A DNA stretch of 64,000 bases from NCBI GenBank assembly GCA_029582155.1, contig CM055898.1, forward strand, positions 24,062,839 to 24,126,838. The letters are read 5' to 3'. Origin of the DNA: Panopea generosa. Its lineage: Eukaryota > Mollusca > Bivalvia > Adapedonta > Hiatellidae. The notes under the pieces are model-generated. The model worked only from the letters and a program-made list of their open reading frames with translations. It had not been told where the DNA came from and did not search any database. Made by a program: the position numbers and the translations under genes. Shown here piece by piece: positions 5,936-59,352 of this stretch; positions within the stretch are counted from its first letter, which is position 1; each line of letters opens with the position of its first letter.

Positions 5936-6645
5936 TTTAGTTTTAGTCTATTTTTGTTTGATGTATCTTTTTGTTTGATGCAGCTTTTTGATTATTGTAG
6001 CTTTTTGATCAATGAAGTTTTTAGTTTGATGTAGCTTTAAGTTTGATGTAGTTTTTTGTTTGATGTGGCTTTTTGAGTGAAGTAGCTTTTTGATTGCTGT
6101 AGCTTTTTGATTAATGTTTTTTTAACTTTGATGCAACTTTTTGATTGATCTGGCTTTTTGTTTGATGGAGCTTTTTGTTAAATAAAAGCTTTTTTATTGA
6201 TGCAGCTTTTTGATTGAAGTAGCTTTTTGATTGCTGTAGCTTTTTCTTAAATGTAGCTTTTTGTTTGATGCAACTTTTTGATTGATCTGGCTTTTTGTTT
6301 TGATATAGCTTTTTGTTTGATGTAGCTTTTTTATTGATGCAGTTTTTTGTTCAATGCAACTTTTTGATTGATCTGGGTTTTTTTTTTAATGTAAGTTTTT
6401 GTTTGATGTAGTTTTTTCATTGATGTAGCTTTTTGTTTGATGTGGCTTTTTTTCTTGATGCAGCATTTTGTTTGATGCAGCTTTTTGTTTGATGTAGCTT
6501 TTTGTTTGATGTAGCTTTTTTGTTTATTGATGTAGCTTTTTGTTTGATGTGGCTTTTTTTATTTGTGCAGTTTTTTGTTTGATGCAGCTTTTTGTTTGAT
6601 GCAGCTTTTTTAATTGATGTAGCTTTATAGCTTTTTGATTAATGT
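5936..6645. repeat. Minisatellite, about 20-21 bp unit
   Basis: About 33 degenerate copies of a unit like tttgatgtagctttttg, with variable spacing and substitutions (tgcagc, tggctt, tgatctgg). The frames that cross it are repeat by-products. Confidence 0.85.
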
Positions 6646-11395: not shown

Positions 11396-11805
11396 ATATA
11401 TCAATATAAACATTGTGATGGTCAGAGAAGTCACAATTTTTACAGCTCAGTTTTGAACCTTCAAATTGTGATGTATGAGATTCCAATGCAGCTGGGATAC
11501 CCGCATGCCAGCATAGTTTTGATTTTGAAAATGATATCATGTGAAGCAATAATGGCAAATATGTTACTTGGTCATATTGGCTAGTCTGGCTTAATTTTTG
11601 TTTTTTTAAATCGTGCATGTATTAAATATATATAAAATTAAACAAAACTTCCAAGATAATTAATCTTTTTAATATACACAATACTGCAGAGATCAGACAG
11701 ATTAAATGATCACACAAGCATAACTATACTTTATTTAAGTTCAGCAAAAATAAATTGAGCGGATGAATTATGATCACAAAAGCTACTTTTTTATAAACCC
11801 AAATC

Positions 11806-11811
11806 TTTATT
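11806..11811 (-). promoter_or_regulatory. Candidate polyadenylation signal AATAAA
   Basis: AATAAA on the minus strand, about 420 bp beyond the first in-frame stop of the 17.25-12.2 kb gene model. It is the first clear signal after the possible extra exon at 12003-11836. Confidence 0.3.
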
Positions 11812-11835
11812 TCCTTTTTATCAACTAATTTTTAA

Positions 11836-12003
11836 TTTTCCTTCAGGCTGTTTTTTTTAATGTTCTGCACTTTCTCCAAGATCTCCTGTATGTCAGCTTT
11901 GAAAATGTTACTTTAAGTATGGATCCTAAAATGTTAAGAAAGTTGGCATCCAATGCAAAACGCATTTTCCCAACATTACACCGTTTTCTTTCCACTAATT
12001 GAA
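11836..12003 (-). CDS. Possible alternative or decayed 3' exon
   Basis: Minus strand: a good acceptor (ctattttctacag) precedes a frame open for about 55 codons, containing CNVGKMRFALDANFLNILGS, that ends TAA-free at a TGA near 11846. In the next frame the end reads ADIQEILEKVQNIKKNSLKE, a coiled-coil-like helix. The two look like halves of one peptide split by a small indel close to an A8 run. It may be an alternative last exon of the upstream gene, a separate remnant, or 3' UTR. Confidence 0.25.
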
Positions 12004-12227
12004 TGATTATAACAATTTCACCTGTAGAAAATAGCACAAATAAAAGTATGCTAATTCAAGACAAGAAAGAATCACCAGGCACAATGGAACCCTCGAATTC
12101 ATTCCTCCTAAACCTGTTATATTTCAGCCCCGAATTTATGACACAAACTTCACTGCTTTCTTAGGTACAGATTCTGCCTCAGTAGCTTGTTTTGGTGCCA
12201 AAACTCGTCGTATTTGTTCTCATAGAC

Positions 12228-15160
12228 TCAATCTTCTCCTCCAGTGACCTTTTCTTCTTTGAACTGAAAATATTTTCTTTTCACTTATTTTAAGGCTGGA
12301 AAGATGCATTTACAAACACATACATATACCGATAACGGCATAGTTTTCTAATCTAAACAATATATTTGAAATAAAAATAAAATTATGATTACTAGACAAC
12401 ATATTATATTACACAACAATGATATATAAACTTGCAGGAAATTGTTATTTTAACCCTTTACTTCATATAGAGGCCTTTGAATACCTCTAATATAGACGCC
12501 TTTGGACACCTCTAATATAGACACCTTTGGACACCAAATATAGAAGGCTTTTGAATTATTGGGTGAATTATGTTTATATTAACTGACAGAGTGGAAAACA
12601 GTGCAGGAAGTCCTGCGCTGTTTTCAAAGACCTTCTGTGATCAGTGCAGAAAAACGCGTATCTATGGAGTAAAGGGTTAAGGAAAGGAACCCTATTCAAC
12701 CTTTTAAAAATATTAAGTATATTAAACTTGACACATTGTAATATAAACAGACCTTACAATAACATAACAAATATCATCATAGAATGTATTATGAAGAATT
12801 GTTATTAGATTTGACTAGCCAGGACTCCAATAGAAGCTGGCCAAATCTGGTAACAACTATATTCAAAAAGAGTTTTCAGAGGACAACAAAGCTCGCCAAT
12901 GGTATTAAATTCATCACACATGCAAAGATTGAGATTGAAGGCAAACACCAAAACTTTAATGCTAAACGCAAAAGTTAAACCTAGACGACAAATTAAGTCC
13001 AAAAGGACCATAACTTTGCCAACATGCAACCCCCGAATTATGGTTTTTGTCTCTGTGTGCTCCATTGATGATGGTGAACACACATGCAAAGTTTTCATTC
13101 ATATCCAGTGAGTGGTTCCATAGATATCTTACCTGATAAAAAAACTTTAACCTGAAAAATTAAGTCCAAAAAGGGCCATAACTCTGCCAAAATGCAATCC
13201 ACAGTTATGGTTTATGTCTATGACGTGTGTGTTTCATTGATGATGGTGTACACACATGCAAAGTTTCATACAAATCCAATGAGTGGTTGCATAAATATCT
13301 TAAACTTAAACGCAACTAAATGAAAAGTTTAACCTGGGTGTCTAAGTTCAAAAAGGGCCATAACTCTGCTAAAATGTAATCCAGAGTTATGGTTCTTGTC
13401 TCTGTGTGTTCCATTGATGATGCTGAACACACTGTTTCATTCATATCCAATGAGTGGTTGCATAGATATCTGTAACTTAAATGCAAAAGTTTAACTTGGT
13501 GTCTACAGACGCTGCTGCCGATGGGTCATGGCAATAGCTCTCCTTGGGCATTCGTATTAGAGAGCTAATAATATAGCACAAAATATGTTGGTGATAAATA
13601 TCTTGGCAAGTGAACCTTTAATCATAGCAAGTTACTTTTCAGCCAGGGCAAGTAGATGTCTTCCAACATACTTGCCCTGGGCTTGTCTCCTATTTATTTT
13701 GAGCACTGTATATACCTTAAGTTACACCTCTTACACATAAAATGTTGTCCAATAATTGATTATACATATATCCAAAACGGTTAATAGTTTTGTGTGGCCA
13801 GCTTTGAGCCATGGGACAAATAAATATTGAAATTTGAAAATCAAATGCTATTTGTTCATTTTTTGGCCATTTATAAATTGTTTCTGCCTGTTGATAAAAA
13901 AGGAGTTATTTTAAGGGTTCAAACATCTTACCTTGGGGGTGTCTTGTCTTTGTGAAACGGCTCCTTCAAATTCAGTACTAGAATAGATAAATGCACACTT
14001 AAAATGATATAAAATAACTAACTGTTTTTTTTTTAAATTAAGAGTTCAAGCCTTCAGAATAATGTTATGTAATGAAGTGAATTGTCAAAGAATGTATTGC
14101 ATTTCAATATGCGTGGTCCTGTTTGCTAAGTCGGTAGCACATCTGACTATCAATCAAGGGGTTGCGAGTTCAAATTTCGGCCTGGCCAGTCACCATGATG
14201 ATTGATAAACAACGTAGCATCTCATTATCACTCGCCTGAATCAAGGGTGATAATTGTCAGTCACATGTGAAGATGTTGTTCTGATTACCATCATACCTGT
14301 CTTAAGCACCAATCAAGGGAAAAAGCAAAAGTGGTCTTTTAAGAAGGATATTGCTTAATACAGATTTATTTGTTTTACAAGTATAGAAATGGCAAATGGC
14401 TTAATAGGTGACCACTTACACAGGCCAGAAATTATTTTTAGCTCGTCTTTTTCGAAGAAAAAAACGAAAAGCTATTGTCACGACCCGTGCATCGGTGCTG
14501 GTGTTGTTGTTGTCCGCTAGTTAAAATTTTATGTTTAGCTCAGCTTTTTTCTCTGTTTCTGAACAAACTACTCATGTTATGGTGACTAAACTTCATAAAC
14601 ACATTCATATTATGTTAAATAAACAATGTATAGCTAACTTACCTACATTTCTATACTTTGGGCTCTAAAACCTTTGGTTAAAGTTTTTTGTTTAGCTTGG
14701 GTTTGATTTTTTTTTTAATCAATCTTTTTTTATTAATCAATCTTATTTTTCAGTAATACTATTCATTCTGTTAAGTCCTCACCATCAACTACAAAAAAGT
14801 TTAAATCACTAACCTTGACCTATTTAATGGACTTGGTTAATACTGTCATTATCCGGTTAAAAGTTTGGTTAAAATTTTTTTGCGCCCAAAACTGTTATTA
14901 GGTATTTATATGCATCGTTGCACATGTAAATGTAGCTAGATTGATAAATAGATCACAGATTGGAAAAACTTTGTAACTATCATTGTTTGAATTTCATGGT
15001 TCCTTATCTACTTGGGTACCTGCCCGAACCCAACCAAGACCCCCACCCTGCTGCCCATTTTATTTTTTGTTTTAATCAATTACTCTACCCCATTTCAACT
15101 TTGTTACCAACCCCAAGACCCTTACCCCCAAGACCCTTACCCCAAGACCATTACCCCCCC

Positions 15161-15198
<38 letters not shown>

Positions 15199-17254
15199 CC
15201 CACCCTCCACCCCCTTTTTTTAACCCCCACCCAATATTTTTTTAAAATTTTATATTGGTTTTAAATTAAATACTCTGCCCCATTTCAACTTTGTTACCGA
15301 CACCAACACCCTCACCCCTACCCCCACACACATCTTTGTCCATTTTTTCAATTATCTAGTAGTAACAGAAAATTTACCTCCTATAACAATGACAGTATTC
15401 ATCATTATAACAATAGTTATAAAAGCTGTCATCTCATGCAATTATTTTAAAATATATACATCATATTCATTATAAAAACAACAAAATTAAGTAAAACTCA
15501 TTTCCCCCTCAACCAAATTGTCCTGGGGGGTTCTTATTGGTAATAAGATGATCTGTTATCGGGCGGCGGAGATTCAAAGTCAGGACCCCTATAGCAATTA
15601 AAACATACCTTTCATAAACTGTAGTATATGGGATGCTGCCTTTACTTGAAGTGTTTTTCTCACAAGTGCTACCTTCAAGTCCTTTTTGCTGGAGACAAGC
15701 TGACATTAATGGAAGACACAGCAGTAAACAAACTGATACCAGCATGCATAAAAAAATTATTATTGTGATAAAGTTAAATACGTAAATGATGTTGACCAAT
15801 GATGCATTTTAGGCACATGTGATAAAGTTAATACCTAAATGATGTTGATCAATGATGCGACTTTTAAGATTAGTTTTGAAGTGTGACAACAAAATGAATT
15901 GTTTTTGTTTTTAAGCTTAACTGTATTTGATAGTAAGAATTAATGAATAACCAAATTATCTGCATGTAATTATTATTTTTACCAGATTGCTTTTTGGCTA
16001 CCAAATATGGAAACTTGTGTGGCAACTTCGACTGACTCCACAGATACTTTTTATTGGCTGTAAATATATACAACAAGCATATTTTTTTAAATATATATAA
16101 TCATTTTTGAAGACCAAAGTCATAAATTTGTAAACCATAGCAGTCTGAGTCACTCGAAGTGTTTTGTCATTAAATCAGTGATTTTATTCATTATTTTGAG
16201 AAACTGTTTGTACATTTTACCTTTAAACTTGGAAATGAGGTGGGTGAGGATTAAGTAGGCATATTTTTTTAAAGCAGACTTCATTACTAATGCATCTGGA
16301 TAATTCAGATGTCCTCAAGAGCCCATATTCTGAATTGTGATGTAAGACAAATTATTTAATAATATATATGAATTCAATAAAATGGACATTTGCCATGAAA
16401 ACAGTCACTTGCATTTAAAAATCAGTTAGTTAATGCTTCTTTTGTGACATTACTGACCAAAACACAATCAAAACAAGTACTAAATATAGTTTTAGCATAC
16501 ACACTACACAATATGAAAGCCATTTCAATGTGCGACAATAACTTTTTTATGAACTTTTCAGTTGTCATGGACCAAGCTAAATTAACATGGCCCTAACGAT
16601 CGAGCTTCATGTTTAGCATTACTTAGCATTATATTCCTTGGAAAACAAAACTATATTGTGTTCATTTTCCAAAAGCATTTCTCTTCTGGCTCATAGTTGG
16701 ATTCATTTTATGAGTAATATTACCTTAAAATAAAAATAATAATAATAAAACATTTTATTGGTAAGGCCAGTTGTTGTTTTTTAGTTTTACGAACCGGCTG
16801 ACTGCAAGTTTTGCCAACACAAAAAAAAAAATTCCAACAAAAAAAGTTAAAAGCTATACACCGCCAATTTACAGTTTGTTGCCATTAATTTTCACAGTTT
16901 ACATGGTATTTTAATATTTTAAACTATAAAAAAAGAATGCCATGATGATTTAAACACTTAACAATATGTTTAGTTTCATTTCCTAAATAAACGTTACCAA
17001 TGATTTGTTTATGTCATGGGTTTTCGCGTCAAATTGTGCTTTCGGAGTTTCTCAAAGTTATTGGAATTTAATGCTATAATTATATACATAGAAGTTTTTG
17101 TTTTAAACAACCAAAATTCGTCAAAGAAAACAACAAAGCTGAGTGGACCAATCTGGCAATGTTCTTTGAAATACTTACTTTGAATTTCACAAACAACTGC
17201 GTCGTATGGTCTTCCCATACTGAACCACACACTAAATAAAAAATCGTATGCCAT
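12228..17254 (-). CDS. Novel five-exon gene, small unrecognised protein
   Basis: Exons on the minus strand: E1 17254-17179 (ATG in gagaaaATGG context, MAYDFLFSVWFSMGRPYDAV.., donor AAA|GTAAGT), E2 16057-15983 (acceptor atatatttacag, KKYLWSQSKLPHKFPYLVAK, donor CTG|GTAAAA), E3 15699-15609 (acceptor attaatgtcag, donor AAAG|GTATGT, three Cys early), E4 13977-13932 (acceptor tctattctag, TEFEGAVSQRQDTPK, donor AAG|GTAAGA), E5 from 12263 (acceptor tattttcag). Phases are 1, 1, 2, 0. The only stop-free frame of E2 is the one E1 demands, and E3-E4 join in frame. About 96 residues precede E5. In the direct frame E5 adds FKEEKVTGGED and stops at 12228. No family is recognised and there is no clear signal peptide. 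Introns hold SINEs, a MITE and tandem repeats. Confidence 0.5.
12450..12680. mobile_element. TTAA-flanked piggyBac-type MITE, copy 1
   Basis: A TTAA at each end (12450-12453 and 12677-12680) encloses inverted ends beginning CCCTTTACTYCATA. TTAA duplication with CCC-starting ends is the hallmark of piggyBac-group elements. The interior contains ctgacagagtggaaaacagt and is non-coding. A second copy in opposite orientation lies at 20250-20449. It sits in intron 4 of the gene model. Confidence 0.75.
12680..12880. other. Intronic, nothing recognised
   Basis: Within intron 4 of the minus-strand gene model. Confidence 0.4.
12885..13505. repeat. Three tandem copies of a 167-182 bp unit
   Basis: Blocks beginning aagtccaaaaagggccataa start at 12995, 13162 and 13344. 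Each is followed by a tctctgtgtgttccattgat and a catatccaatgagtggttgc block. Divergence between copies is moderate. The unit type is probably the core of a dispersed molluscan repeat. Confidence 0.75.
13506..14095. other. Intronic; holds exon 4 of the gene model, otherwise nothing
   Basis: Apart from the exon at 13977-13932, this stretch is AT-rich without repeats I recognise. The inverted pair gccagggcaagtagatgtc / acttgccctggg at about 13632-13682 could form a hairpin. Confidence 0.35.
14105..14290 (+). repeat. SINE family D, diverged copy
   Basis: Head: gtttgctaagtcggtagcac (A box) and gttgcgagttcaaatttcgg (B box). Body: agtcaccatgatgattgata, as in the full-length copy at 59.7-60.0 kb. 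The 3' half is lost at the junction with element B. Confidence 0.65.
14294..14425. mobile_element. Element B, copy 2
   Basis: The left end tacctgtcttaagcaccaat and right end ggtgaccacttacacaggcc are the inverted termini also seen at 625-1030 and at 46.27/47.67 kb. This copy is uninterrupted and about 130 bp. Confidence 0.5.
14434..14960. repeat. Dispersed molluscan-type repeat starting with a tagctcg hairpin
   Basis: It starts with the short palindrome ctttttcgaagaaaaa in tagctcg...aaaagctattgtcacg, then runs through tgttgttgttgtccgctagt and repeated 'ggttaaagttttttg'-type motifs (about 14676 and 14856). I recall similar beginnings as widespread in bivalve genomes; that is background knowledge, not tested here. 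No coding capacity. Confidence 0.45.
15005..15340. repeat. C-rich tandem repeat with a (CA)n run
   Basis: About 12 CA dinucleotides lie at about 15166-15195 amid cccaagacccttacccc repeats. The segment ctctaccccatttcaacttt at about 15082 recurs at about 15278, so a unit of roughly 200 bp is partly duplicated. Intron 3 of the gene model. Confidence 0.7.
15340..15600. other. Intronic, nothing recognised
   Basis: Intron 3 next to exon 3 of the gene model. AT-rich. Confidence 0.35.
15769..15865. repeat. Two-copy tandem duplication, about 56 bp
   Basis: gtgataaagttaaatacgta and gtgataaagttaatacctaa each begin a unit that ends caatgatgc. Intron 2 of the gene model. Confidence 0.6.
16080..17175. 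other. Intron 1 of the gene model, no other feature
   Basis: AT-rich with homopolymers. No repeat or other exon recognised. Confidence 0.4.
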
Positions 17255-17600
17255 TTTCTCAAAATGACCGCGACTTCATATAATTTTTGCAATCCAATCA
17301 TGTACGTCATTACATATGTTTTAGCTGACTTGTTTGCTAATGTCGTCTGAACTACATTAAGGATATTTTAATTATCTTAAAAAAAGGATATATTAATTAT
17401 TTTAAATCCATTCTTATTCGTGTCGACAGCGCTGATGGAAAAATGGGAATTCACGCGGTTTCTGGTGAATGTTGTTGTTGTTTATTCACAAATAAACATT
17501 GATCACCAATATTTTCCCTTTTCAAACTCATTTTTAGACTGATTTCAACTTATCAATGGTCAAAGATTTGTTTTGTTAAAGGTCGAAACATTTGATAAAA
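17255..17600. promoter_or_regulatory. Candidate bidirectional promoter
   Basis: Lies between the minus-strand ATG at 17254 and a plus-strand ATG at 17601. It contains clustered CpG (cgcggtt, gtcgacagcgctgatgg, ccgcgacttc) in an otherwise CpG-poor window. No TATA box is obvious. Both flanking ATGs carry A at -3 and G at +4. Confidence 0.35.
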
Positions 17601-17774
17601 ATGGCTTCAAACGCCGAGGTGATAGAGACGCGATTATTCGACGAAACAATCATGATGTCTGTTGTTTATGAAAATAAACAGAGGAAATGAACAACTATGA
17701 ATGCAACATATGACATCGTGTCCTGTGTTCGAAGAATTCTGTTTAGATCTATCATCTCTTCAGCTTATAAAATG
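17601..17774 (+). CDS. Possible 5' exon of a plus-strand gene
   Basis: ATG at 17601 in aaaATGG context opens a 29-codon frame (MASNAEVIETRLFDETIMMS..) ending TGA at 17688. A second ATG at 17697 in the same frame runs NATYDIVSCVRRILFRSIIS.. into a perfect GTAAGT donor at 17775. Either the first frame is an upstream ORF, or the TGA breaks a longer exon. CpG-rich for this window. No downstream exon was placed; the next 1 kb is a tandem array. Protein not recognised. Confidence 0.3.
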
Positions 17775-17906
17775 AGTAAGTATAAATTCAACGCATATCT
17801 CAGCTACCGGTCAAAGTATCGTACCTAGGACCCCCACCTCCTACTGTTTTTGTTTTTTGTGGTAGTCCTGTGTGTAATATATGGTTATAATATTATGTTC
17901 ATTTTG

Positions 17907-20249: not shown

Positions 20250-20449
20250 TTAACCCTTTACTCCATAGATACGCGTTTTCCCACATCAATCACAGAAGGT
20301 CATTGAAAACGAGCAATCTGAACACTTCCTGCACTGTTTTCCACTCTGTCAGTTAATATAAACATAATTCACCCATTGCTGATACGTGGTGAATTGATAC
20401 TTTCAATATTAGAGGTGTCCAAAGGCGTCAATATGAAGTAAAGGGTTAA
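20250..20449. mobile_element. TTAA-flanked piggyBac-type MITE, copy 2
   Basis: TTAA at 20250-20253 and 20446-20449, inner ends CCCTTTACTCCATA and its inverse, with shared interior motifs (ctgcactgttttccactctg; ttaatataaacataattcac). Inverted relative to copy 1 and about 30 bp shorter through an internal deletion. Confidence 0.75.
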
Positions 20450-25839: not shown

Positions 25840-27175
25840 ATGAAGCTAAATGAACATGAATACAAAATGAAGTTAAATCAACAAGAACTCATCAAGAAGT
25901 TAAACATAAGCTCAACAAAAAGTTATATAAACAAGAACTGACAACATGGAGTTAAATTAACAAGAACTGACAGCATGGAGGTAAATTAACAGGAACAGAC
26001 AGCATGGAGGTAAATTAACAAGAACTGACAACATGGAGGTAAATTCACAAGAACTGACAGCATAGAGGTAAATTAACAAGAACTGATAACATGAAGCTAA
26101 ATTAACAAGAACTGACAATATGAAGTTAAATTAACAAGAACTGACAACATGGAGGTAAATTAACAAGAACTGACAGCATGGAGGTAAATTAACAAGAACT
26201 GACAGCATGGAGGTTAATAAACAAGAACTGACAGCATGGAGGTAAGTTAACAAGAGCTGACAACATGCAGGTAAATAAACAAGAACTGACAACATTGAGG
26301 TAAATTAACAAATATTGACAACATGAAGTTAAATAAACAAGAACTGACAACATGAACTGACAGCATGAAGTTAAATAAACAAGAACTTACAACATGAAGT
26401 TAAATAAACAAGAATTGACAACATGAATGTAAATTAACAATAACTAAGAGCATGAAGTTAAATTAACAAGAACTGACAACATGGAGTTAAATTAAGAAGA
26501 ACTGACGACATAAAGTTAAATTACCAAGAACTGACAACATGAAGGTGAATTAACAAAAACTGACAGCATGGAGGTAAATTGACAAGAGCAGACAACATGG
26601 AGTTTAATTAACAAGAAATGGCAACATGGATGTTAATTAACAAGAACTGACAACATAAAGTTAAATTACCAAGAACTGACAATATGGAGTTAAATTAACA
26701 AGAACTGACAACATGAAGTTAAATTACCAAGAACTGACAACATTGAGGTGAATTAACAAGAACTGACAGCATGGAGGTAAATAACCAAGAACTGACAACA
26801 TGGAGGTAAATTAACAAGAACTGACAACATTAATAAGAACTGACAGCATGGAGGTAAATTACCAAGAACTGACAACATGGAGGTAATTTAACAAGAACTG
26901 ATAACATAAAGTTAAATCAACAAGAACTGACAAATGAAGTTAAATTAACAAGAACCGACAACATGGAGTTAAATTAACAAGAACTGACAACATGGAGGTA
27001 AATAAACAAGAACTTACAACATAAAGTTCAATCAACAAGAACTGATAAATGAAGTTAAATTAACAAGAACTGACAACATGGAGGTACATTAACAAGAACT
27101 GACAACATGGAGTTAATGAAACAAGAACTGACAACATGAAGTTATATAAACTAGAATTTACAACATGAAGTAGTT
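25840..27175. repeat. Minisatellite, about 29 bp unit
   Basis: About 45 copies of taacaagaactgacaacatg followed by gaggtaaat or aagttaaat. Variants (gcatg, taacat, accaag) are interspersed rather than grouped. No coding signal. Confidence 0.9.
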
Positions 27176-42119: not shown

Positions 42120-43435
42120 TAGTTGTGAATAATCCAGATATGTCATATTTTCCCCAAGGAATTCAGATTGTGATAGAAAAATGGTTCACCTTGCAGCAAA
42201 TGTTTCAATTAGGCTATGTTAACATGTCTCTTTCTGTATTTATCAGACTATAAAATGTACACTTCACAGTAAATAGTGAACTTACGCTATGTAAACATGT
42301 CTCTGCCTATATTAGCCTATAGAATGGTGCACTTACAGTAAATATTTAACTTGGTCTGTTGACATGTCTCTTCCTATAAATTTTATTAGTCTATAGAATG
42401 GTGCACTTCACAGTAAATATTTAACTTAAACTATGATGACATATGTCCCGTCCTATATATATTAGCCTATAAAGTGGTGCACTTCACAGTTAATATCTAA
42501 CTGAGGCACTGTTGACAAATCTCTTCCTATATTTATTAGCCTATAAATTAATGCACTTCACAGTAAATATTTAACCAAGACTTTGTTGACATATCTCTTC
42601 CTATATTCATTAGCCTATAAACTGGTGCACTTCACAGTAAATAATTTAACTTGGACTATGTTAACATGTCTCTTCATATATTTATTAGTCTATAAACTGG
42701 TGCACTTCACAGTAAGTATTCAACTTGGACTATGTTAACATGTCTCTTCATATATATTTATTAGCCTATAAACTGGTGCACTTCACAGTAAATATATAAC
42801 TTGGACTATGTTAACATGTCTCCTCCTATATTCATTAGCCTATAAACTGGTGCACTTTACAGTAAATAGTTAACTTAGGCTCTGTTGACATGTCTTTTCT
42901 TATATTTATTAGCCTATAAACTGGTGCACTTCACAGTAAATATTTAACTTGGACTATGTTGACATGTCTTTTCTTATATTTATTAGCCTATAAACTAGTG
43001 CACTTCACAGTAAATATTTAACTTGGACTATGTTAACATGTCTCTTCACATATTTATTAGTCTATAAACTGGTCCACTTCTCAATTGATATTTAACTTAG
43101 GCTATGTTAACATGTCTCTACCTACATGTATCAGACTATAAAATTATGCACTTCACAGTAAATATTCAACTACGGCTATGTTGATATGTCTCTTCCTGCA
43201 TTTATTAGCCTAAAGAAAGGCACACTTCACAGTAAATATTTAACTTGGGCTATGTTGACATGTCTCTTCCTATATTTGTTAGCCTATAAATTGGTGCACT
43301 TCACAGTAAATATTTAACTTGGACTATGTTAACATGTCTCTTCATATATTTATTAATCTATAAACTGGTGCACTTCACAGTAAATATTCAACTTGGGTTA
43401 TGTTGACATATCTCTTCCTATGTTCATTGTGGTGT
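42120..43435. repeat. Minisatellite, about 73-75 bp unit
   Basis: About 17 copies of a unit with ttattagcctataaactggt, gcacttcacagtaaatattt and actatgttaacatgtctctt. The central copies are the most alike; edges are diverged. Confidence 0.9.
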
Positions 43436-46258: not shown

Positions 46259-46374
46259 ATTATAAAACAGTCAATCAAACCTGTGTAAATGGCCACCTCT
46301 ATTAAACAGCCATCTGTCTTAAGCAACAATATTTTCTATTTCCCATTTCTATGCTATCAGAGTAAATTAACATA

Positions 46375-47587
46375 TACTCAGGAAAACTAGAAACGTCCCT
46401 GTTTTATAGCCGGTGAAACTTTGTCTGTGTAGTTGCTACATGTTCAATGTACATGTATTTTAAACCCTGGCGATGTTCAGAATACCATCGTGTACAGTTT
46501 ACCCGATACGCACGGTTTACGTATCGGCCAGTAACCGGAACGGTCATTTGCACGTTTTGCACGTGCACGCTATACATGTCATCCGTATGTTGATTCAGTT
46601 CATGTCGTACCATTCATGCGATAGGGGCTATTCTGAAAAATTTTTCTTTAATTTTTCACTGTTTTCGATATGCCACAGCTTTCCGAAAACAAGCGAAATC
46701 AGGCAAATGGGATGCTTGTGGGTGGGACGTCCGCCAGGGTAGTCGCGCGGTGGTTCGGGTGCTGTCGGAAGACGATTGATCGTCTTGCATCCCGGTACCA
46801 ACAGACTGGGGCTGTTCACGACCGGCAGCGACCTGGTAGGCCTCGTGTAACGACGACTAGAGCCGATCGTTTCATTACATTGACGCACTTACGTCAATGT
46901 CAATTGGCAGCCACAGTCACTGCTAGGCAATATGGTGTCTCAGAGCAGACCATTCGCAACCGGTTGCGTCGTAACGCCCAACCAATCAGGACACGCCGCC
47001 CGTACACTGGTCAGATAATGACCCAACGTCACCGTGCTGCCAGGCTGTTATGGGCGCGACGTCATCTGATTTGGAGAAGGGCTGACTGGAACCGAGTTTT
47101 GTTCACCGATGAATCTCGGTTCACAGTTAGTCATGCTGACGGAAGATTACAGGTATACAGGCGTAAAAATGAAAGATTCACCGATTGTTGCATTGTTGAG
47201 AAGAACAGGAATGGAGGAATTTGCCCAACGCACTGGTATTGCGTTACGTTACGTCGATGCGGCGTAGGATCATTGCATGCATTCATGCAAATGGTGGCCA
47301 CACTCGGTACTAATGAGATTTATTGGATTTGCCACATTTCTTATTGAAATTCCATCACTAAACATTCAATAACACCTTTCTGAGTTTTTGGGATTTTTGA
47401 TTTTGACCCCTACCTCTCTTGACCGGTTATCTCTCGAAAAGTTAACAAGATAGCCAGATGTTATTAATTTGTTTTGATACAGAAATGAATGAACTTGTTT
47501 TTCTATTTTTATTCATAAAAGTAACCCTTTTGGTTTTCGATAAATCTTTCCTGAAATATAGAGGGACGTTTCTATTTTTGCTGAGTA
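46375..47587 (+). mobile_element. Tc1-type transposon, internally deleted
   Basis: 24-bp terminal inverted repeats at 46377-46400 and 47562-47585 (CTCAGSAAAAMTAGAAACGT..) differ at two positions, and each is flanked by TA. Length is 1209 bp, shorter than the usual 1.5-1.7 kb because about a third of the transposase is missing. High inverted-repeat identity and a long open frame suggest recent activity in trans. Confidence 0.85.
46670..47347 (+). pseudogene. Tc1-like transposase, internal deletion
   Basis: From ATG 46670: a first HTH (ARVVARWFGCCRKTIDRLAS), then a GRPR-type linker (RPGRPR, about residues 54-59), a second HTH (ARQYGVSEQTIRNRLR, about 85-100), and the first catalytic block RVLFTDESRF with Asp at about 147. 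After residue about 180 the frame jumps into what should be the extreme C terminus. In another frame this ends MRRRIIACIHANGGHTRY then TAA at 47311, the typical Tc1 end. The segment with the second Asp and the Glu/Asp of the DDE triad is deleted, so it cannot catalyse transposition. GC content is higher than its surroundings. Confidence 0.9.
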
Positions 47588-52144: not shown

Positions 52145-52550
52145 CAAAACCCCTGATGTCATTATCAATCTTTCTTTAATGTGTCATTTTATACAATATG
52201 TATCAATAGGAAGACTAAAACTACAAAAACAACGAAAAATCAAAATTTGTGTTATGAAAAACAATTCAAAAATGATATTGATAACTCAGGTAATACCGGT
52301 ACATATAATTTCAATGTATTTTAAAATATCTGTTGCACTATTAAACTTGAATAATAATAATTTATATATAAAATTAGTGTTCCATCATTATATGCTTTTT
52401 TCAAAATATCTTGCCTGCAGGCAGTGTATGGCTGTCCATAACAAACTAATGTGTATTGTATGTACTACCAGAATCACTGTTTTCACAAAATAACCTTTAA
52501 ATGATATTACATTTGTTTAATCACCTTTGTAAGTTTGCAATCTCTGCTCT
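52145..52550. other. No gene; one long AT-driven frame
   Basis: A 104-codon plus-strand frame (52179-52493) is rich in I, K, N and L from AT bias. It has no motif, no splice support and no codon-use signal. Treated as chance. Confidence 0.35.
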
Positions 52551-52554
52551 TCTT

Positions 52555-53955
52555 CTCTCACCTGGAATATTCTTTATGGCATTTTACAGTTGCACTTGTG
52601 TTTTCTGGAGTTGATGTGTTCCTTCTTCTTGTCTCATCTGGAATCTTCCTTATGGCTTCTTTGAGTTCAATAGTGTTTTCTTGAATTGGTGTGCTCCCAC
52701 TACTTTTCTCATCTGGAATCTTCCTCATGGCTTTCTTGAGTTACATTAGAGTTCTTTGGAGTGGTGGGTGTTTTCACTCTACTTTTCTCATCTGGAATCT
52801 TCCTCATGGCTTTCTTGAGTTACATTAGAGTTCTCTGGAGTGGTGGGTGTTTTCACTCTACTTTTCTCATCTGGAATCTTCCTCATGGCTTTCTTGAGTT
52901 ACATTAGAGTTCTCTGGAGTGGTGGGTGTTTTCACTTTACTTTTCTCATCTGGAATCTTCCTCATGGCTTTCTTGAGTTACATTAGAGTTCTTTGGAGTG
53001 GTGGGTGTTTTCACTCTACTTTTCTCATATGGAATCTTCCTTATGGCTTTCTTGAGTTACATTAGAGTTCTTTGGAATGGTGGGTGTTTTCACTCTACTT
53101 TTCTCATATGGAATCTTCCTTATGGCTTTCTTGAGTAACATTAGAGTTCTCTGGAGTGGTGGGTGTTTTCACTCTACTTTTCTCATCTGGAATCTTCCTC
53201 ATGGCTTTCTTGAGTTACATTAGAGTTCTTTGGAGTGGCTGGTGTTTTCACTCTACTTTTCTCATATGGAATCTTCCTTATGGCTTTCTTGAGTTACATT
53301 AGAGTTCTATGGAGTTGGTGTGTTGTACTCTACTTGTCTCATCAGGGATATTCCTTATGGCTTTCTTGAGTTCAATAGTTTTTTTATAGAATTGGTGTGC
53401 TCCCACTATTTTGAATTAGAGTTTTCTGGACTCTCCTTTTTACATTTGAAATCTTCCTCATGGCTTTCTTCAGTTGTATTAGAGTTCTCTGGAGTTGGTG
53501 TGTTGGCTCTACTTGTCTCATCTGGAATCTTCCTTATGGCTTTCTTGACTTCAGTAGTGTTTTCTGGACTCTCCTTGTCTCAACTGGAATCTTCCTCATG
53601 GCTTTCTTGAGTTGCATTAGATTTCTCTGGAGTTGTTGTGTTGACTCTACTGGTCTCATCTGTAATTTTCCTCATGGCTTTCTTGAGTTGTATTAGAGTT
53701 TTCTCGAGTTGTTGTGTTTCCTCTTCTTGCCTCATCTGGAATCTTCCTTATGGCTTTCATTAGATGCATTAGAGTTCTCTGGAGTTGGTGTGTTACCTCT
53801 TCTTGTCTTATCTGGAATCTTCCTCATGGCTTTTTTTAGTTGCCTTAGAGTTTTCTTGAATTTTCCTTATGGCTTTCTTGTGTTCATTAGAGTTTTCTGG
53901 AGTAACTGTTGGTGTTCTCGTTTCATCTTAATCTTCCTTAAGGCGATCTTGAGTC
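52555..53955. repeat. Minisatellite, 79 bp unit
   Basis: About 17 copies of ctcatctggaatcttcctca, tggctttcttgagttacatt, agagttctctggagtggtgg and gtgttttcactctactttt. Spacing is exactly 79 in the left half (52710, 52789, 52868). The right half is more diverged, with shortened units. Frames across it are artefacts. Confidence 0.9.
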
Positions 53956-55209: not shown

Positions 55210-57440
55210 TATCGTCAGTTAACGCATTTGTCGTCTGCAAGTCTGATCAATACTTAATCGCGGTTTTATTTTCTCACCTTGGATTTAGCCATTTTATTTG
55301 GTCTGTTATTGAGCGAATAATAATTGATGAGAGTGTATCAGAGTTGAATGACTTTTTGTCAAATTTAAAGCTGTTCCTATATTTCCATATATGCCACTTG
55401 GCTGCAGATATTACAGTATTTAAGATATTGCATTTCATAGGAGGCTTGTAAAAGTCAAGTGCTATTTAATTGTAATTCAAATTGCGCGGTTAGATGTCGA
55501 TTTTATCTATGAGATCATAAATTATGATTTCTAGATATTTTATGACGGGTTTTATATTATCGCATCTAAAGAATAGATGAATTAATGTTTCTCTTTCCTT
55601 TTTTGCATTTGTTACATAATCCATTTGATAATCACATTATATATTTGTGTTCCCTAAAAATTGCATTATGAAGAAATGTCCATTGGAACTCAGCAGCTTG
55701 GCTTTGCTGGAACTTTTAATATTCATCCATATATGCTTCCACTCGACATTATTTACTAAAAGTTGCTCTTCCCATTTTATTTCTGTATTTCTGTATTTCG
55801 TGACGGGTTTTTATTGCTATGAGAATTTGTAAAGACAAGTATTTGTTTCGTCTTGAGTTTATTTGGTGGAATAAGTTCTTTCTTAAAAATTAGAATGTTT
55901 GTGTCTTTCATAAGTAAATTAGAAGTTAAATTTTGTATTATTTGATAATCGTTTGTCTTTAAGTCATCAATAAATTTTTAACCTCGGTGATCCTGTTTTG
56001 GGCGAACTGTAGCTTGCCAAGGAACGTGTTTTCAGAAATAAAGGTTTTTGCGTTCGTGTCTCATATATCAGATAGTGTTTTAATGTTGCTTTTTGAAAAT
56101 GATTTTAGAAAGAGAGGTTTATTTGAAAAAGAAATCTCATGATTTCCAAACACTCGGTTTTGATTTGGATATTGAAGACCTTCAATACAGGAGCATTGAC
56201 ATAAGAAGTAGTCTTGTGCAAATTGTGTGTCTACAGATTTCAGATTATATTTTCCAAAAGCATTCCAGTGGTCAAGTTCCATATTTAAAATCTTATATAA
56301 AATTGTAGTCTTAATTTGCATATATCGAATAACATTGTTAAGATTAATCATACCAAGTCTGCCATATTTAGTGTTTTGGTAAATTTTTGCCTTCAAAACT
56401 AAAAGTTTTTTATTTTTTCAAATGAAGTGTAGCATAATATTTTGTAAGTCAGATGCATATCTATCTGGAATTCTTCACATTTTTAATTCGAAATTTATTT
56501 TAGATAATGCAAATGTTTTCAAAATAAGAACATTTCCTTGATAGGTAAGATTGCACGACTTCCAAACTTGTAAACACATTTTTATTTTATTGATCTTATC
56601 GATCCATATTGCATCATTATCAATGTCATATCCATGGGATACACCTAGTGTTTTCACAGTAGATTTGGTCCATTTGATTTGTTTGAAAGTAGATGTTTTA
56701 TCTTTAAGTCTGCCTATAAAGAGGCCTTGAGTTTTATCTTTATTTATTTTAGCACCCGATGTGTTTTCATATACTCTTAATTGTTTAAATATGAACAGCA
56801 ATGATTTTTCATTTCTTGCGTGTTGTCAACATATTTGTTTAATTTGGTTTCAAGTTGTATATTGTTATGGGCTGGAAGCAGTATTCCGTTTATATTATTA
56901 TCATTTCATATAGCACAGGCCATAGCTTCTGCTTGAAGAATATATAAAATCGGCGCTACCGGACAACCTTGCTTTATTATCTAAGATCTCGATATCTCGA
57001 AATATTCTGATATAAAGCTGTTGGTTTCTATAACAGTTTTTGATGATTTTAATGACATGAAAATCCAGTTTGTGAATTTTTCACCAAAACCAAAGCGATT
57101 TAAGCATTAGTAAATCCATTTCCATTCCGACCTATCGAAAGCCTATATTTTATCTAGAAAAACTATAATACCATTAATGTTTTCAGTGTCTGCATATTCT
57201 ATAAAATCTTGAATTAACCGATTAGCTTCGTTGATATACTGTCCATTAATGTAACCTTTTGATTTGAGTGAATGAGTTCCGGTAATAGAGGTTTAATTCT
57301 TTCAGAGAAACATTTGGCTATTATTTTGTAGTCATTATTTAATAATGTTAAAGGGCGCCAGTTCTTGAGATTTTCACATTTGCCATTATTGTAAATAAGG
57401 GAGAGTATTCCTTTGCACTAGGAACTAGATAGAGTCAAAC
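55210..57440 (-). pseudogene. L1/Tx1-like LINE fossil: RT and C-terminal zinc-binding region
   Basis: Read on the minus strand from 57.44 kb: KCENLKNWRPLTLLNNDYKI (RT block 1), FIEYADTENINGIIVFL, RFGFGEKF-like, IIKQGCPVAPILYILQAEAM (about 56980-56920), YVDNTQ in place of YADDTQ (about 56833), SGAKINKDKTQGLFIG, TVKTLGVSHGYD and LTYQGNVLILKTFALSKI. Then come YGRLGMINLNNVIRYMQIK and a GLCNKC...RETLIHLFFRC zinc-binding end (about 55610-55560). The order is that of L1/Tx1-type ORF2. The catalytic YADD is altered and many stops and shifts interrupt it. The endonuclease is absent, so it is 5' truncated, as is usual for LINE copies. Confidence 0.8.
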
Positions 57441-58291: not shown

Positions 58292-58594
58292 CAGTGTATG
58301 AAGAAATATGAAGAAAGAGTTTCTAAACCAAACCGGTTAAAAATAATGTTGTTATCAAATATTTATGCTTACTCTATACTTTTTGGTTAGTTGATTTAAA
58401 TATGTTTATTATGGTAAATAACCATGAAAATTACTGCACCAACATGCAATCCTTAACACTGTGGCGTCACCACCCATCAAAATATAGTGCGATATTTATG
58501 TGATTAATTTAACTAAAATCAAAGTATTTTTGTTCTATAATTAAGAATATAAAATACTTTGCTTGGAATAATGAGTTCAGTTATTTGCAAAGTA

Positions 58595-58650
58595 ATACAT
58601 CGAGTCATAACGAAGCTACTGCTGTCTGTCCGCGCCATTTTAGAAGTTTC
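58595..58650 (-). CDS. Possible first coding exon
   Basis: Minus-strand ATG near 58645 in taaaATGGCGCGGAC context opens MARTDSSSFVMTR, with locally raised CpG. A weak donor (GAT|GTATTA) follows. Isolated and unrecognised. Confidence 0.18.
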
Positions 58651-58651
58651 T

Positions 58652-59140
58652 GTCAATGGTGTCAGATGTATTTTAGATGATTTAATAACTAAGTAAGCCA
58701 GAAAATGCACTTTGTTGGGAAGCTTTTAAATTTAATAAAAAAATTGGTACACATATTTTCTATCGGATGTATAAATAACCCTTATCATGTTTTACTATAA
58801 GCTGTGAAATACACCTTGCGGCAATAACATTCGATTAACAATTGTCACCCGCTGTGCGAAAGGAGGTCAATTTTGATATACGTCTTGCCGCAATGTATTA
58901 ACTTGTTTTTTTCTCCAAGTGGTCAAAGCTGGGACTTTCGGACCGAAAATTGCTTGCGTCATTAAACTATTTGATAAAAACCCGCAGTATTACTTGTTTG
59001 CTTGAGTTTTTTAACAATTACTTTGATTATAATATAAATAACATCAATTAAGGAAAGTTATCAAACCTGGACCGATTTATTTTGATGTCGGACCGGAATT
59101 GTTTGCGTTAGCCATAACGTTTGGAAAAATAGTTGTAGTT
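58652..59140. other. No gene recognised
   Basis: AT-rich with scattered CpG. Diverged pairs (tcaattttgatatacgtctt; gaccgaaaattgcttgcgtc / gaccggaattgtttgcgtta at 58941 and 59091) suggest a partial duplication of about 150 bp. Confidence 0.35.
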
Positions 59141-59144
59141 TAAA

Positions 59145-59352
59145 CTTATTTATTTTACTTTGATTGTGAAACAAGTTCTTACAACTTAGACAAATCACGC
59201 TCATAGTCTTCCTGGGTAGAACCAGTACAAAGCATATGCGGAAAAAGTGTTTTGCTCAAGGACACCTCCCATAGTTGTGGCGGAGGATCAAACACACGAC
59301 CCTCCGATCATGGGTTCGGTGCTCTACCACTAGACCATGTGCTCCACATTAA
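59145..59352 (-). repeat. SINE family F, full length
   Basis: Reverse-oriented: tgattgtgaaacaagttctt, catagtcttcctgggtagaa, aaagtgttttgctcaaggac, inverted B box gatcaaacacacgaccctcc, and inverted A box gctctaccactagaccatgt. Confidence 0.8.

Follow-up and report, generated by a model that had tools for sequence, protein, structure and literature searches.

The systems that come closest to the locus described here are the CpG-rich, possibly bidirectional promoters of animal genomes and the small multi-exon animal genes that are taxonomically restricted (‘orphans’). In the Pacific oyster, promoters are generally unmethylated, and methylation climbs sharply past the transcription start site (PMC4378273). 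The locus, on the minus strand of a 64,000-nt stretch of DNA (‘the window’), resembles such CpG-rich promoters in displaying a local CpG observed-to-expected ratio (o/e) of 1.31 within a depleted window and candidate first exons on both strands; it differs from them in that no more than a short ORF stands as its partner on the plus strand, and any transcription from it is predicted. With orphan genes it shares short exons, GT-AG introns and the lack of a match in Pfam, NCBIfam or PDB sequences; a restriction to one lineage is putative, and the absence of a match may simply reflect the collections searched. A small protein-coding gene is, on balance, probably present, and the exact protein proposed in a first-pass annotation of this DNA is not established. 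The reading preferred here, and held tentatively, is a minus-strand gene with a CpG-rich promoter, spliced as E1-E3-E4-E5, encoding a 117-residue protein (in ‘frame C’) and ending near 11.8 kb.

The first-pass annotation had described five short exons (E1 to E5), their junction phases and an initiating ATG, all of which are found in the letters where it placed them (Table 1). The context of that ATG is good, as claimed (A at -3, G at +4); E1 leaves one base, E2 is open in f2 only, and E3 in f2 and E4 in f1 fit. E1 to E4 comprise 96 codons, in line with the estimate of about 96 residues before the last exon. Each of E2 to E5 is preceded by AG, and each of E1 to E4 is bounded by GT on its 3' side. 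GT-AG sites, agreeing phases and an ATG-to-stop reading thus occur together, and do so for more than one frame; shuffled sequence yields in-phase chains as well. Agreement of phase argues weakly for a gene, because two of the three frames are open in E3 and likewise in E4. The AATAAA at the distal end, one of 142 on the minus strand of the window, accounts for the end point of the original annotation.

Table 1. Positions of the candidate exons, reading-frame landmarks and associated features in the window.
Feature	Position	Strand	Remarks
Top CpG o/e tile of the window	17201..17800		1.31; promoter-like; level at two decimals with 46301-46900
Short ORF MASNAEVIETRLFDETIMMSVVYENKQRK	17601..17690	+	within the 17-kb CpG peak
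Exon 1, containing E1, with upstream frame C start	17179..17310	-	donor AAA/GTAAGT
Frame C ATGs in exon 1	17310; another at 17301	-	alternative starts
Frame A ATGs in exon 1	17254; further one at 17218	-	same frame
E1 (frame A ATG to donor)	17254-17179	-	76 nt; f0, leaves 1 base
E2	16057-15983	-	75 nt; phase 1 at both ends; only f2 open; doubtful or optional
E3	15699-15609	-	91 nt; two open frames, f0 (C) and f2 (A); donor AAG/GTATGT
E4	13977-13932	-	46 nt; two open frames, f1 (A) and f2 (C); donor AAG/GTAAGA
E5, coding part	12263-12179	-	weak acceptor; frame A stop ends 12228, frame C stop at 12179
AATAAA, possible poly(A) signal	11811-11806	-	common by chance
Unrelated chain, same stretch	16523-16458, 15355-15316, 13183-13133, 12113-12022		score 22.17

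The window is depleted of CpG (o/e 0.46 overall), and among 635 overlapping 600-nt tiles the median o/e is 0.40 and the 99th percentile 1.21. E1 sits on the margin of the 17-kb peak, where an o/e of the order characteristic of unmethylated promoters (about 1 or more in depleted surroundings) is reached. By the oyster pattern of promoter methylation (PMC4378273), a peak at this position suggests a promoter; the stretch looks like an unmethylated one, its lack of methylation being presumed from its CpG content. Stretches resembling E1, running from an ATG to a donor, number six in the window: two are nested in E1 and four lie in tandem arrays, the latter with a CpG o/e of 0 to 0.13. The tile tied for the highest ratio overlaps a Tc-type transposase ORF, and CpG-high tiles without a known gene occur elsewhere, for example at 58601-59200. 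This tile lies within the next-highest peak, 58501-59200 (o/e up to 1.24), which is away from the 46-kb transposon and is a possible promoter of another gene. The short plus-strand ORF within the 17-kb peak, which has no match in Pfam, is followed on its 3' side by a GTAAGT donor at 17776 and is possibly the start of a divergent transcript; the peak itself could belong solely to a plus-strand transcript.

Chance was assessed by searching for chains of an ATG exon and three in-phase internal exons whose summed splice score was at least that reported, with the E5 acceptor not counted. Of 2000 dinucleotide shuffles of the region, 62 contained a chain as good or better, as did 63 of 1500 block shuffles and 4 of a smaller initial set of 120. 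Across the roughly 23 non-overlapping 5.5-kb strand-tiles that the window can hold, chance should thus supply close to one chain of this kind. Among 62 overlapping tiles of the real sequence, one reaches the score, and it is the sole tile to contain E1 to E4 whole; none of 62 does so in the reversed sequence. The best chain of that tile exchanges E2 for 14235-14194 (23.4 versus 22.19), and in tile 11701-17200, which lacks the E1 ATG, a chain with no exon in common scores 22.17 versus 22.19. Judged on splice sites alone, the annotated chain is no better than a window of this size would give by chance; splice sum and coding score per codon of E1 to E4 were both matched in 0 of 3000 further shuffles. 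The shuffle counts, and the equal score of an unrelated chain from the same stretch, are what would be expected if there were no gene at all, only chance splice-like sites in AT-rich DNA adjoining an unrelated CpG-rich stretch; that reading, which is unlikely but carries appreciable weight, leaves the location of E1 in the top CpG peak and the length of the open frame to coincidence.

Consensus splice sites had been reported throughout the chain, and the AG and GT dinucleotides are indeed all present, but the sites are not all strong when scored with metazoan weight matrices (which are not mollusc-trained). Among all GT in the window, the donors of E1, E3 and E4 fall within the best 1.7%, 0.5% and 0.2%, respectively, and that of E2 is moderate (top 5.5%); the acceptors of E2, E3 and E4 rank in the top 2.1%, 4.0% and 12% of all AG, and that of E5, at 62%, is undistinguished. 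E2 and the E5 acceptor are the weakest elements of the proposed set. A generic gene-finding run did not return the annotated chain, a miss that carries no weight against it because the thresholds excluded the E2 donor and the E4 and E5 acceptors.

When E2 is included, ‘frame A’ reads MAYDFLFSVW...QDTPK over 96 codons and runs a further 11 codons into E5 (FKEEKVTGGED) before its stop, for a total of 107 amino acids. A frame of 107 codons was equalled on the shuffled five-exon sequence in 14 of 4000 trials, a count that is biased because the exons had been picked for their openness. Its coding score is 0.17 bits per codon; the 315 ORFs of at least 50 codons in the window average -0.07 (sd 0.14), and 5.1% of them reach 0.16. 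This five-exon protein, beginning at ATG 17254 and ending GED in E5, enjoys the best Kozak context, phases that agree at all junctions, and a coding score that, jointly with its splice sum, no shuffle equalled. However, codon periodicity is absent when E2 is present (its period-3 value was matched in 555 of 3000 shuffles for all bases and 184 of 3000 for G, and the value for E1 to E4 is reached by 65% of null chains), the E2 donor is weaker and the E5 acceptor weak, the chain is at chance level and equalled in score by an unrelated one, and the stop falls early in E5, beyond which frame C continues. With these features, and a longer in-phase frame available across E1-E3-E4-E5, the specific five-exon protein is improbable; what survives of the annotated multi-exon gene is a gene starting at E1, as suggested by the CpG peak and the longer open frame.

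That longer frame, frame C, is obtained when E2 is left out, and extends from ATG 17310 to the stop at 12179 with phases in agreement at all three junctions. Its 117-residue translation (MTYMIGLQKLYEVAVILRKW...SFGTKTSY) is rich in lysine and carries, close to its C-terminus, a basic KKKR stretch that we take to be a possible nuclear localisation signal. An ATG frame of at least 117 codons arose in 2 of 4000 shuffles of the spliced E1+E3+E4+E5 sequence, and 1 of 552 pseudo-mRNAs cut at real sites in the window reached that length. The codon-position composition of frame C was matched in 9 of 3000 shuffles for all bases and in 0 of 3000 for G. The G enrichment lies at codon position 3; coding DNA is usually highest in G at position 1. 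Of the same 315 ORFs, 8.9% have a coding score at least as high as that of frame C (0.115 bits per codon). The frame C model is thus favored by the CpG peak, the rarity of E1-type stretches, the 117-codon length, the codon-position composition and three agreeing phases; it is weakened by a chain at chance level, a weak E5 acceptor, a modest coding score, G at position 3, the exon-choice nulls given below, the lack of a detected homologue, the absence of any preference over frame A, and a CpG peak that may belong to the plus strand.

The same four exons also accommodate frame A from ATG 17254, as a protein of 82 residues, and the two frames were therefore compared on their common nucleotides. 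Codon log2-likelihoods are -466.9 for frame C versus -464.8 for frame A without E2, and position log-likelihoods -329.7 versus -327.4, so that the two are about equally likely, with a slight lean to frame A. The 82-residue product has the best Kozak context and a period-3 signal matched in 9 of 3000 shuffles for all bases and 1 of 3000 for G, with the G peak at codon position 1; it is, however, the shorter of the two, and if transcription starts above 17310 the ATG of frame C precedes its own within exon 1. Frame A finds no homologue in Pfam or PDB sequences. The 82-residue protein is a quite unlikely product. Over the common exons, G periodicity is matched in 2 of 5000 shuffles without E2 versus 309 of 5000 with it. 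Among 1092 null chains from which one exon could be dropped, 14.6% are at least as periodic as E1+E3+E4 when all bases are counted and 1.4% when G alone is; the G statistic had been picked after the composition was seen. The coding signal is good without E2 and absent with it, and is weaker once exon choice is allowed for.

If the frame C model is correct, transcription would start at about 17.2-17.8 kb in a promoter rich in CpG and free of methylation, which may also serve a divergent plus-strand transcript; ordinary GT-AG introns would be removed to join E1, E3, E4 and E5; and the transcript would end near 11.8 kb, with the 117-residue protein as its most likely product. E2 would then be spurious, or else an optional cassette that, when included, is predicted to terminate frame C at a TAG stop in the frame that would carry it onward. 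That E2 acts as a switch between two overlapping proteins of one transcript (frame C when it is skipped, the 107-residue frame A when it is included) is very improbable. A missing exon that would lead from frame A in E1/E2 into frame C in E3 was also considered: no candidate lies between E2 and E3, and the coding scores of two candidates of suitable phase between E1 and E2 (16853-16795 and 16576-16458) are negative. Poor scores were likewise obtained for an alternative E2 donor (TTG/GTAGCC, -1.4) and an alternative E3 acceptor (-8.4).

The statement that the protein matches no known family holds for Pfam and NCBIfam (hmmscan, frames A and C) and for PDB sequences (phmmer, frame C, frame A and a hybrid of both), with nothing above cut-off. 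A Ciliary neurotrophic factor (PF01110) match to frame C (12.9 bits, E 0.072) was taken as chance, since the gathering cut-off is 22.7 bits, as were those to pieces and to a hybrid (12.7 and 13.4 bits). Degenerate scans confirmed no relative among prokaryote genome contigs (130 stretches for frame C, 27 for frame A) or viral contigs (8 and 4, respectively), collections that, being prokaryotic and viral, are expected to hold few relatives. Rfam gave 0 matches in the window at gathering scores, and a transposon origin of the exons was rejected when blastn located none of the five anywhere else within the 64,000 nt. The absence of a homologue in the protein and contig collections, the ambiguity of the frames and the CpG peak would also suit a spliced non-coding or divergent promoter transcript, with a real promoter and accidental open frames; this is doubtful, slightly more so than the complete absence of a gene, as a 117-codon frame that is also periodic would be a rare accident.

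If real, the frame C gene would be one more small gene missed by long-frame searches and otherwise ordinary, from which little would be learned of any new mechanism; it would suggest that CpG contrast may flag first exons in a CpG-depleted, invertebrate-like genome.

Several other features are present in the window. The 231-codon plus-strand ORF at 46652-47347 encodes Tc-type transposase helix-turn-helix domains (HTH_28, E 1.2e-10; HTH_Tnp_Tc3_2, E 2.5e-07, just below cut-off), and the GC-rich, CpG-rich patch around it probably marks a recent transposon insertion. On the minus strand, 57217-57417 is a reverse-transcriptase-like fragment (RVT_1, E 1.7e-04, below cut-off); the same retroelement may also have left the neighbouring ORFs on that strand at 55-57 kb, of which the one tested, 56478-56825, gave no match. 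An inverted repeat pair, 88% identical, lies at 12560-12680 and 20250-20375; the intron that separates E4 from E5 contains one of the two copies. Long tandem arrays, with reported periods of 17 to 222 bases, occupy 5951-6626, 25930-27171, 42194-43428 and 52547-53856.
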